From Pyrinomonas methylaliphatogenes (GTDB taxonomy: Bacteria; Acidobacteriota; Blastocatellia; Pyrinomonadales; Pyrinomonadaceae): DNA of 64,000 bases. The notes under the pieces were generated by a model, which was given only the letters and a program-made list of their open reading frames with translations, had not been told where the DNA came from and did no database searches. The stretch spans positions 728,705-792,704 of the forward strand of contig NZ_CBXV010000008.1 of the NCBI RefSeq assembly GCF_000820845.2. The letters are read 5' to 3'. The translations under genes and the position numbers were made by a program. Positions 7,423-57,060 of the stretch are shown here, one piece after another; positions within the stretch are counted from its first letter, which is position 1, and the number at the start of each line of letters is the position of its first letter.

Positions 7423-7821
7423 TCAGTGCTCTGAGGCGGAGGTGGGCTTCTTCCGCGCGCACCGATGGACGGCCTGCAGCAGCTTCTCCACATCGAGCGG
7501 CTTTTTGAAGACGGCGAAAGCCCCCTTCTGCAGGCAGTGTCGTTGAATTTCAGGGTTGGCGATGGAGCTGACGACGAGGATTTGAGAGGAAGGTAGATTG
7601 TTTCTGAGCTGTTCGAGGATATACAACCCGATCTCGATCGTGCTGACGACCGGTGGCAAGCATAGGTCGAGAATCGAGATCTGAGGTTTGTGCTCACGGG
7701 CAAGGAGCAGGGCGGAAGCCAGATCGTTCGCCGTCAAGACCTCATATTCGTCGCACAGAACCCAAAAGAGCTGTTGCGAGACGGCCGCATCGTCATCGAT
7801 GATCAATACCTTCGGCTTCAT
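7423..7821 (-). CDS. Stand-alone receiver related to PrsR
   Basis: 132 residues, a receiver domain only. Phosphoacceptor Asp52 lies in ISILDLCLPPVVSTIEIGL, and the Lys pocket in FKKPL. The LxLPP followed by a short insertion and GL is not the usual MP loop. It is the arrangement seen in PrsR, the sigma-54 regulator linked to PEP-CTERM/exosortase systems, and is shared with the next gene upstream (DLHLPPATDSITEGL). It is therefore probably a paralogue of that receiver without the AAA+ and DNA-binding parts. ATG 7821 is fixed by AAAGGGAGG just upstream; a longer frame to 7911 lacks a ribosome site. Confidence 0.85.
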   Translation of the reverse strand: MKPKVLIIDDDAAVSQQLFWVLCDEYEVLTANDLASALLLAREHKPQISILDLCLPPVVSTIEIGLYILEQLRNNLPSSQILVVSSIANPEIQRHCLQKGAFAVFKKPLDVEKLLQAVHRCARKKPTSASEH

Positions 7822-7972: not shown

Positions 7973-8069
7973 CGGCTCGCGCATCATTGAGCGTCGAAAA
8001 GCTCGTAGGCTTCGTTCACCCGCTGAATCGGGATCACCGGCTTGCGCATCGTTGAGCGTCGAAAAGCCC
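7973..8069. repeat. Direct-repeat pair A, 32 bp, period 65
   Basis: Units at 7973-8004 and 8038-8069 differ at 3 of 32 positions and share GCATC, TTGAGCGTCGAAAAGC. The 33-bp spacer has no similarity to the repeat and contains a small CCCG/CGGG hairpin. Pair B with a different sequence follows after 23 bp. Both lie in the 455-bp gap between two minus-strand regulator genes, downstream of the sigma-54 activator. Confidence 0.85.
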
Positions 8070-8092
8070 TCTCGCTAGCCGAAGTGGCAAGG

Positions 8093-8190
8093 GGGCGCGC
8101 TTGTTTCCGGTAACAACCGTCCACCGTTTCGCGGCGAGCGCGCTAGCTGCCCCGCGTAGGGCGCGCTTGTTTCCGGTAACAACCGTCCAC
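8093..8190. repeat. Identical direct-repeat pair B, 32 bp, period 66, with internal palindrome
   Basis: Units at 8093-8124 and 8159-8190 are identical over 32 bp; the 34-bp spacer is unrelated. Each unit contains the near-palindrome TTGTTTCCGGTAACAA (8101-8116 and 8167-8182), in which TTGTT/AACAA flank CCGG. This could be a paired protein-binding site. The remainder of the gap (8191-8276) shows nothing further. The unit size and spacing are the same as pair A, but the sequences are unrelated. Confidence 0.9.
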
Positions 8191-8276: not shown

Positions 8277-9674
<1,398 letters not shown>

Positions 9675-9825
9675 GTCAACGACGTTCGATCTGCCGCTCT
9701 CGTCGCAAAAAGCTGGCGCGAGGCTGGATGCATCAAGCCGGACCGCCTCTTTGCGCCCAGCCGATGCGTCGGAACTTCGGTCTTTCGCGGAAAGGACGTT
9801 GAAGCGATGATCCGCTCGCGCTCTT

Positions 9826-11691
9826 TCAAACGCGCTCCTGATCATCGCTTGGCGAGGATGGTAACACGACCCGAAAGCGCGTGCCAACGCCCACGCGCGA
9901 TTCGACTTCGATGCGCCCGCCGTGCGCTTCGACGATTTCGCGACAAGTATAGAGACCGAGTCCGATGCCTTTGTCCTTCGTGGTGGCGAACGGGCGGAAG
10001 AGTCTGTTGCGGATGAACTCTTCGTCCATCCCGCGCCCCGTATCGGCGACGCTGAAGAAGACGTGGTCGCCTTCTTCGCCAGCCTCTATGGTCAATCTCC
10101 CGCCGTTTGCGCCCATGGCCTCCATCGCGTTGATGACGAGATTCTCGATGACCCTTTCGATCGCTTCCGCATCGGCCCGTATGGGCAAGGTCGCAGGCAA
10201 GTGGGTTTCGATCTCGTAGAGCGGCGCGGCGCGCTCCGCCGTCGCGTCCAACACGCGGCGAATCAGCGCGCACAGGTCCGTCGGCGCCCTTTTGCGTTGA
10301 AGTTCGATTTGCCGCGCTTCCGCCGGAGCGTTCAGCCGCGCGACGATGCGCCGCAGTTTGTCGGTCGCCTCGCGCAGCGAGATGACGGCATCTTGGCGGA
10401 ACTCCTCGCGGTGAAACTGCCGTTCCATATTGCGCACGAGCATCGAGAGCGAAGTGATGGCGTTCTTTAGATCGTGCGTCAACATGGCTGAAAGTCGCGT
10501 GAAAGCCTCGAATTGGCGCGCCTCCGCTTCGCGCGCGATCAGCTCGCGCAGTTGCTCCGACATGCGGTTGAAGCTATCGGCCAGCACGCGCGTCTCATCC
10601 TTCGCGCTAACTTTTATCCGCTGGTCCAGGTCGCCGCTGGCTATTGCCGCCGCGCCTTCCGCCACGCGCGCGATGCGCCGCGCCGTGCGGTTGATGATGA
10701 CGACGAGGACGGAGGCGGCGATGAACGCCAGCGCGAGCGATAACGTGATGCTCGTCAGGGCGGCGCGCTCCAAACGCATGAGCGCGCGCGATTCGTTCGC
10801 GCCAGTGATGACCGCAAGGCCAAGGGCCGTCGGGCGATAAGCGATGAGCCAGCGCGTTCCATCCGATGACCTATAACTTTGCGTCCCGTTGCCGGCTCCG
10901 AAGATCGCCTTTAAAAGCGGCTCGAATTCCGGCATCGCGCGCTTGACCGGTTGATATTTGAGCGAATCGTCCGTGTGGAAGAGGATCAATCCGGTGCGAT
11001 CGAGGACCATCGCCACGCGCAGCCCGCTGCCGGTTAGCTCCTCGCGCGCCGAGATCATCGCATCGGCTGCCGCCTCTTCGAAGATCGCGCTCAATTTGAG
11101 TTCAGCGACGAGCGCGCCGCGCGGTGCGTCGGCGGCAGGACCAGCGAGGAAGATCGGGATCGTGTAGCGGAGCGCTGCGCCATAGTTTTCGCGTTCGATC
11201 GGCGAGCGCAATACCACGGGCGCCTCGGTGCGCCAAACCCGCTCGTCAGCCTGCGCCGGTTCGAGTTGCGCTGTTTTGAAGCGAACCTCAGCGCGCCCGC
11301 CCGTTTGGAGGAGATTTTCGACGCGAAAGAGCGGGCGCTTGCGGGCGTCCAAACAGGTGATGGCGGCGTAGTAGCGCCGATAGTTGAGATAGAAGGCGCC
11401 GACGTCGTCGCGCACCGCTTCGGGGATTTCAGCCGGGGCTTGGGCCTTGCTCGCCGCGCGCACGTATTCGCGCAATGAGCGCAGGCGCGCCAACTCGTCG
11501 AGGTTAAGCTCGCGATCGGCGAGTTGGCGTTCTATGTTCTGCGCCATTCGCGTCGCGCTCGCCTGCGCATCGTCGAGCAGCAGGCGTTCGACCGTGCGCC
11601 GCCCGTTCAAATAGTTCGCCACGGCAAGCGCGAGCATGGGCGCGACGCCGCAGGCTAGGAAGACGAGCAGAAGTTTGGTCCTGATGCTCAC
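9826..11691 (-). CDS. Transmembrane sensor histidine kinase, PrsK-like catalytic part
   Basis: 621 residues. An N-terminal membrane helix (LLLVFLACGVAPMLALAVA), a large extracytoplasmic sensor of about 250 residues (Cache-like by layout), a second helix (SITLSLALAFIAASVLVVII), a HAMP linker, then MLTHDLKNAITSLSMLVRNM with the phospho-His, and an ATPase domain with N (NLVINAMEAMG), G1 (DTGRGM) and G2 (KGIGLGLY) boxes. The HDLKN dimerisation box resembles PrsK, but PrsK usually has a multi-helix membrane region and GAF domain, so the sensor part differs. GTG 11691 is preferred: AAGGGATT precedes it. It probably phosphorylates the adjacent sigma-54 regulator. Confidence 0.88.
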   Translation of the reverse strand: MSIRTKLLLVFLACGVAPMLALAVANYLNGRRTVERLLLDDAQASATRMAQNIERQLADRELNLDELARLRSLREYVRAASKAQAPAEIPEAVRDDVGAFYLNYRRYYAAITCLDARKRPLFRVENLLQTGGRAEVRFKTAQLEPAQADERVWRTEAPVVLRSPIERENYGAALRYTIPIFLAGPAADAPRGALVAELKLSAIFEEAAADAMISAREELTGSGLRVAMVLDRTGLILFHTDDSLKYQPVKRAMPEFEPLLKAIFGAGNGTQSYRSSDGTRWLIAYRPTALGLAVITGANESRALMRLERAALTSITLSLALAFIAASVLVVIINRTARRIARVAEGAAAIASGDLDQRIKVSAKDETRVLADSFNRMSEQLRELIAREAEARQFEAFTRLSAMLTHDLKNAITSLSMLVRNMERQFHREEFRQDAVISLREATDKLRRIVARLNAPAEARQIELQRKRAPTDLCALIRRVLDATAERAAPLYEIETHLPATLPIRADAEAIERVIENLVINAMEAMGANGGRLTIEAGEEGDHVFFSVADTGRGMDEEFIRNRLFRPFATTKDKGIGLGLYTCREIVEAHGGRIEVESRVGVGTRFRVVLPSSPSDDQERV

Positions 11692-16934: not shown

Positions 16935-17063
16935 TTCTTCCTCCTTAAGGTCGATTCTTCGTGCGGGGGAGAGGAAGCGTTCTGCCCTTTAAGACGGAGG
17001 GCGTCTCGTTTGGGTCGAAAAATTTTTCAAGCGCTGAGGCGGAGCGGTCAGTAAAACCGGGTT

Positions 17064-17140
17064 CGGTTCAATCCATCTAGCGTCTTCGCGCAATCGGTTG
17101 GCAAGCGCCGGCGCGCTCGGTTCAATCCATCTAGCGCCTT
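17064..17140. repeat. Direct-repeat pair, 23 bp, period 54
   Basis: CGGTTCAATCCATCTAGCG is exact at 17064-17082 and 17118-17136, and 22 of 23 bases agree when four more are included. The 31 bp between are unrelated. It lies 68 bp beyond the stop codon of the minus-strand HAD gene (17208), in a 273-bp gap with no other feature I can support. Confidence 0.85.
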
Positions 17141-17207
17141 CTCATCATTTCATCGATCGCAAATCAGCTTCGACCTACTCGCCGGCGCGCCGCCCAACGC
17201 TTGAAGT

Positions 17208-25062: not shown

Positions 25063-25231
25063 TGGGGCTGAGATGATCTCGTTGGTGCGGGATTCGTCCG
25101 ATGACGTGTAGGTCGGCGACTGGCGGAATCGGGCCAAGGCGACTTCGGTTGTGCGGGACTCGTCTAATTCCTGATGCTGCGCGACGAGCGCGTTATTCGG
25201 CCAAGGCGACTTCGCTTGTGCGAGGCTCGAC
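25063..25231. repeat. Three-unit direct-repeat array, about 35 bp, period 66-67
   Basis: Units at about 25063-25098, 25130-25164 and 25197-25231. Units 2 and 3 share GGCCAAGGCGACTTCG and TTGTGCG and agree at 29 of 35 positions; unit 1 is weaker, sharing GTGCGGGATTCGTC. Spacers of about 32 bp are unrelated. The array begins about 11 bp after the stop codon of the methyltransferase gene. A weaker pair (CGGAGCRAACTG at 25286 and 25345) lies further on. The rest of this 377-bp gap (to 25429) shows no gene or terminator. Confidence 0.75.
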
Positions 25232-43222: not shown

Positions 43223-43320
43223 GGATCACATCTACCTTCGTTCGCCATCGAAGACGGGCTCGCAATATTTCTTTCGAGTTGGCTCTTCGGGATCCCATCT
43301 ATCTTCGTTCGCCATCGAAG
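43223..43320. repeat. Direct-repeat pair, 31 bp, period 67, second unit inside a gene end
   Basis: Units at 43223-43253 and 43290-43320 agree at 29 of 31 positions (GGATCMCATCTAYCTTCG then TTCGCCATCGAAG). Each holds a small hairpin CTTCG/CGAAG. The 36-bp spacer is unrelated. Unit 1 starts 5 bp after the fabG stop codon. Unit 2 covers the last seven codons and stop of the convergent acyltransferase gene (43299). Confidence 0.85.
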
Positions 43321-56909: not shown

Positions 56910-57060
56910 CGGCGCGAAATTCTTAAGGAAGTGGTGGCACAGGGAGCGTCACAGTGCAAAGGATGGCGCGAAAGATTCTGAAGGTCCAGTCTTCGGCCAA
57001 TTCTATGGCATCATGATGATGTCATAGTGCAAGGGATGGCGCGAAAGATTTTGAAGGGGC
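56908..57060. repeat. Direct-repeat array, about 38 bp, period 73, with a weaker first unit
   Basis: Units 2 (from 56948) and 3 (from 57021) share GATGGCGCGAAAGATT and TGAAGG and agree at about 34 of 38 positions. A weaker unit 1 (GGCGCGAAATTCTTAAGG, from 56911) overlaps the last codons of the beta-propeller gene and is 54 bp before unit 2. Spacers are unrelated. It fills the gap between two convergent genes. Confidence 0.82.

Follow-up and report, generated by a model that had tools for sequence, protein, structure and literature searches.

Repeat pairs scattered through the genome of Pyrinomonas methylaliphatogenes as probable products of off-target CRISPR spacer integration

Two repeat pairs in a single intergenic gap

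The window analysed here, a 64,000-nucleotide stretch of the Pyrinomonas methylaliphatogenes genome, contains a gap of ~455 nt flanked by two minus-strand genes, one for a receiver-domain protein (probable start near 7821) and one for an NtrC-type response regulator (8277-9887). Two pairs of direct repeats, A and B, adjoin one another in this gap, as an earlier note on this DNA had placed them. In pair A, assigned to the minus strand, the copies at 7973-8002 (leader-distal if read on that strand) and 8038-8067 are identical at 28 of 30 positions and enclose a spacer-like insert of 35 nt (8003-8037), giving a period of 65. Pair B, assigned to the plus strand, consists of copies at 8093-8124 and 8159-8190, identical at all 32 positions, around a spacer-like insert of 34 nt (8125-8158), with a period of 66. 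Both periods and the identity of the B copies agree with the earlier description, while the repeat of A, previously put at 32 nt, measures 30 nt. The copies are read here as target-site duplications, for the reasons developed below.

The repeats of A and B are unrelated in sequence, as had been recognized before, and neither was found again elsewhere in the genome with up to three mismatches. Two other explanations were rejected for this site. A functional CRISPR array does not fit, because each repeat is unique and there are no cas genes near A or B; an operator pair would need one recognition sequence at several promoters, and these repeats occur nowhere else. An Rfam scan of the window returned two tRNAs and nothing else. 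In other family members, the corresponding gap is ~115-200 nt shorter, a difference that would fit the lack of both units (65 and 66 nt); it comes from arithmetic on BLAST coordinates and not from an alignment of the empty site, and no close strain showed an empty site. In the sister Pyrinomonas genome (G001), the matches to the receiver gene and the NtrC gene lie on two separate short contigs.

The stretch between the copies of A, formerly taken as mere spacing, proved to be inserted DNA. All 35 nt are found, without a mismatch, in a gene for alcohol dehydrogenase that lies on a different contig (G000:C1:191649-191685), and the match extends to 37 nt when 2 nt of the repeat are counted. A fragment of remote origin between two copies of a local sequence is what an insertion that duplicates its target site looks like. 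Among the inserts found elsewhere in the genome (see below), one agrees at 30 of 31 nt with a gene whose product is receptor-like; no closer source copy was found in the genome. Nothing matching insert B turned up in the rest of the genome, viral contigs gave no exact match to it, and its matches to phage records are all non-significant. Three young inserts were likewise not found in viral contigs, three inserts searched singly in the genome gave no second copy with up to three mismatches, and most inserts have no chromosomal source in the ~0.93 Mb searched, about a quarter of the genome.

The inserts also share no sequence among themselves. This bears on the idea of a small mobile element or dispersed repeat family, which would account for many insertions between direct repeats. 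Since the inserts are unrelated to each other and only ~36 nt long, there is no element there to be mobile, and we regard this explanation as refuted for practical purposes.

The population of pairs across the genome

Pairs A and B belong to a much larger set. In sampled stretches of the same genome totalling 864 kb, about a quarter of it, 59 mutually unrelated pairs were found (period 58-78, repeat 24-42 nt), or about one detectable scar per 15 kb; extrapolation to the whole genome gives ~250 pairs. In 464 kb of the genome the periods show a sharp peak at 65-67, and an order-2 Markov resample of these 464 kb contained no pair with a period of 60-75 where the real sequence contains dozens, so that chance is excluded. 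Among the 59 pairs, the commonest repeat is 30 nt and the commonest insert 36 nt; mean repeat identity is 0.947, and 11 pairs are identical. Repeat lengths span 24-40 nt, a wider range than in the genome's own CRISPR arrays. Periods of 65-68 account for 30 pairs and those of 71-74 for 15, which makes two modes; three pairs have a period of 69 and none has 70.

The window itself holds at least three further pairs besides A and B, with periods of 67 or 73 (no strand assigned). Two have 31-nt repeats and a period of 67, one at 25132-25229 with a 36-nt insert and one at 43223-43320 with an insert of 35-36 nt, the latter at the junction of two genes. The third, at 56948-57057, is intergenic and of the longer class, with a repeat of 37 nt, an insert of 36 nt and a period of 73. 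A weaker candidate at 17063-17141 (25-nt repeat, period 54, insert 29 nt; also without strand) lies outside the main length classes.

The central proposal of the earlier note, that length and spacing rather than sequence are what is conserved, thus holds genome-wide across the sampled pairs. It had allowed that A and B might descend from one sequence that later diverged. The two are unrelated, and dozens more unrelated pairs share their dimensions, which argues against such a common origin.

The pairs avoid genes. Open reading frames (ORFs) cover 92% of the sample, yet in 35 of the 59 pairs ORF coverage is below one half, and only a few pairs are set deep within ORFs of at least 200 codons; coding tandem repeats make up two or three of the 59. 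At four sites outside the canonical array there are chains of three copies with two inserts, as if the unit had acted as an array.

A mostly intergenic location would also be expected of conserved regulatory sites, for instance paired binding sites ~6 helical turns apart that serve a looping or dimeric regulator. The gap with A and B adjoins regulator genes, and both B copies contain the near-palindrome TTGTTTCCGGTAACAA (14 of 16 positions), confirming what had been seen there; as the B copies are identical, it counts as a single occurrence. The repeats of different pairs have no sequence in common, those of A and B do not recur, whole duplications of ~30 nt with abrupt edges are unlike binding sites, and insert A derives from a gene. 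Regulatory sites are therefore a highly unlikely explanation. The suggestion that a protein binds the B palindrome, or that small RNAs arise from the region, is likewise unsupported, the palindrome being unique to B and lacking from the other pairs; the interpretation in the earlier note as a whole is partly supported.

Resident CRISPR systems, edge motifs and relatives

The abundance of CRISPRs in P. methylaliphatogenes K22 was remarked on in its genome paper (PMC4644332), and two systems are relevant here. A type I-B/III-B locus on contig C9 encodes Cas6, Cmr proteins, Cas8b, Cas7, Cas5, Cas3, Cas4, Cas1b and Cas2, the last adjoining Cas1b; its array has a 30-nt repeat and units of 65-68 nt (30+36). 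On contig C5, a protein of the Cas4g/Cas1g type (650 bits, above cut-off) is encoded together with a type I-G array of 49 repeats, whose repeat is 35-36 nt and whose units are 70-75 nt (35-36+36; mode 72-73). Both cas1 genes score above their subtype cut-offs. The two period modes of the scattered pairs equal the unit lengths of these two arrays. The I-B leader of the genome ends CCTAGGGGG, followed by GTTTTAATCGG, and the I-B junction of the sister genome reads CAAGGGGGGGGGCTTAATC; the leader-repeat junctions, marked by a slash, are AGGGGG/GTTTTA for I-B and GATGCT/ATTTCC for I-G on contig C5.

Several other repeats were seen around these loci. After the I-G array on contig C5 (L033, 6080-6390 and 6749-7170) lies a dense cluster of further pairs together with a three-copy chain, AATTTTCAACCTATAATGGAAGAAATAG; this cluster may represent another degenerate array or a place where ectopic integration is frequent. 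Beyond the I-B leader on the same contig (L143, 700-2013), spaced repeated motifs, CCGTCCCACCCACACTTGTACGACAGC and GGCTTTGTCGCCACATGAAGCA..GTTGTCGAA, have CRISPR-like spacing and differing sequences. A second I-B-type repeat group, with 1-3 mismatches in each repeat, lies at G000:C5:2138-2741 on the minus strand, in the orientation opposite to the main array. On contig C9, a repeat pair of period 74 (L035, 1155-1270) is found inside the cas operon, between cas1b and cas2.

The scattered pairs might, in principle, be degenerate ends of old and formerly canonical CRISPR arrays, as the extra degenerate repeat groups beside the I-G array (L033, 6080-6390) would suggest. The pairs sit at dozens of separate sites, and their repeats resemble neither canonical repeat nor one another, fitting no single ancestral repeat past the first few nucleotides. 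This origin is very improbable for the set of pairs.

The pair edges were compared with the leader-repeat junctions. At these edges, G is enriched at positions -3 to +1 and T at +3/+4, as at the I-B junction. The mean best match to AGGGG/GTTTT is 4.27 of 10 at pair edges and 3.22 ± 0.15 at random sites, with shifted sites scoring 3.05-3.59; taking the better of two edges inflates the observed scores, and the controls were scored under the same rule. Permuted motifs reach the edge score in 0.5% of cases (p = 0.005), and a local displaced control gave p < 0.001. The outer edge of pair A at its second copy, AGAGG/GCTTT on the minus strand, matches the I-B junction at 8 of 10 positions. Pair B matches at 3 of 10 at the called boundary and begins in a G-run, CAAGGGGGCGC, with CAAGG just before its first copy.

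The two length classes differ in the junction that their edges resemble. The short class scores z = 6.3 against the I-B junction and 1.1 against the I-G junction of contig C5, whereas the long class scores 4.7 against the I-G junction and 2.5 against the I-B junction. Permutation of the class labels gave p = 0.0013, and the result was unchanged when coding repeats and linked pairs were dropped (p = 0.0010); the C5 junction was scored in two registers, of which only one gave a signal, so that these p-values are somewhat optimistic. Two integrases that each measure length in their own way and favour their own targets would leave such a split.

The distribution among relatives is also informative. 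Family members without cas1 have no such pair in the 351 kb sampled, and the other Pyrinomonas genome has about six in ~49 kb of readable sequence. In 775 kb from other genera with cas1, six candidates came up; at least two are of low complexity, and most of the others are in a single genome, G039. Since these genera are nearly free of pairs, Cas1 is not sufficient, and a factor particular to Pyrinomonas must make integration lax or its products tolerated.

The pairs of G039, which represents a cas1-positive genus of the same class, lie at L187 17177 and 17336 and at L186 8111. They have periods of 73-74 and are identical at 32/32 and 35/35 positions, and two of them share a contig with cas1; they possibly reflect the same process at a low rate. 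In the sister Pyrinomonas genome, a 63-nt unit in three tandem copies was noted near the NtrC homologue (L011, 2755-2931).

Error-prone repair and template switching during replication are known to leave templated inserts between flanking duplications. Copying of filler DNA together with a local duplication, at a break or a stalled fork and with no Cas proteins involved, could accordingly produce a structure such as pair A, whose insert copies a remote gene. Processes of this kind would not be expected to give periods confined to narrow classes that coincide with the unit lengths of the two CRISPR arrays, nor class-wise edges resembling two different leader-repeat junctions, and the lack of pairs in the cas1-less relatives speaks against them too. 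We consider repair or template switching unlikely, if less so than the other alternatives.

Proposed origin and comparison with known systems

Pairs A, B and their like are very probably products of off-target spacer integration by Cas1-Cas2. In the mechanism that we propose, a captured DNA fragment of ~36 bp would become attached to both strands of a chromosomal target through staggered attack, the outer edge of that target being similar to a CRISPR leader-repeat junction. Gap filling would then duplicate the ~30-bp (or ~36-bp) target and leave a repeat-insert-repeat structure, a one-spacer 'neo-CRISPR' unit. Pair A would have captured a fragment of the host's own alcohol dehydrogenase gene, and pair B DNA that had no significant match in the searches above. 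The 66-nt units would be the work of Cas1b-Cas2 of the I-B/III-B locus, and the 72-73-nt units that of Cas4/1-Cas2 of the I-G locus.

The features expected of a neo-CRISPR unit can be compared with what was found. A duplication of repeat length surrounds an insert of spacer length in both pairs (30+35 nt in A, 32+34 nt in B), and an integrase is encoded in the genome. Insertion of DNA from elsewhere is seen for A and for one other insert. The leader-repeat-like edge is a property of the population, being clear in A (8 of 10) and limited in B to the G-run. A dependence on Cas1-Cas2 would agree with the lack of pairs in the cas1-less relatives, but the cas1-positive genera outside Pyrinomonas are also mostly free of them.

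The units themselves are presumably non-functional scars tolerated between genes. Some could conceivably be expressed and used, so that, for example, an RNA from A that matches the host's alcohol dehydrogenase gene would alter its expression; we think this very unlikely, but if it were true, new RNAs with regulatory or immune roles would have their origin in off-target integration.

If the proposed origin is right, CRISPR adaptation would be a major source of intergenic mutation in Pyrinomonas, with each scar adding ~66-73 bp; the machinery that keeps a record of viral infections would seem, at the same time, to mutate its own genome steadily. Hundreds of integration sites of two integrases would then be available in one natural genome, and could reveal target preferences, the geometry of completed integration and decay over time without experiments. 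The proposal bears on the birth of new CRISPR arrays, several sites having already reached three copies, and on why other cas1-positive genomes keep integration specific. Many of the 'two-repeat, low-evidence' CRISPR calls made in such genomes would, on this view, reflect genuine integration and not noise.

Off-target integration itself is known, but its scale (~250 per genome by extrapolation) and the fingerprint of two integrases in a natural genome appear, from a literature search, to be new. Nivala, Shipman and Church (2018; Nat Microbiol 3:310) reportedly name a few natural cases.

One comparison is with the canonical I-B/III-B and I-G arrays of the same genome, with which the pairs share unit length, insert length and edge motif. 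Unlike these arrays, the pairs each have a repeat of their own, usually hold one insert per site, are spread chromosome-wide and lack adjoining cas genes or a leader. Cas1-Cas2 joins spacer-sized fragments to both ends of the repeat, and its off-target sites favour G and look like leader-repeat junctions (Kim et al. 2019, PMC6895254). These off-target sites were seen in vitro with the type II-A Cas1-Cas2 of Streptococcus thermophilus and resemble those described here; the products are probably half-site events on plasmids, whereas Pyrinomonas shows completed duplications in a natural chromosome, attributable to types I-B and I-G. In Escherichia coli, overexpressed Cas1-Cas2 integrates at non-array sites, as later papers relate (Nivala et al. 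2018, via PMC11788318 and PMC9456107). By these accounts, the resulting neo-CRISPR loci, like the pairs described here, consist of spacer-sized DNA at chromosomal sites that resemble the CRISPR locus, with the target duplicated; the E. coli loci arose under overexpression, as so related, while Pyrinomonas carries ~59 natural pairs in 0.86 Mb that are attributable to two integrases.
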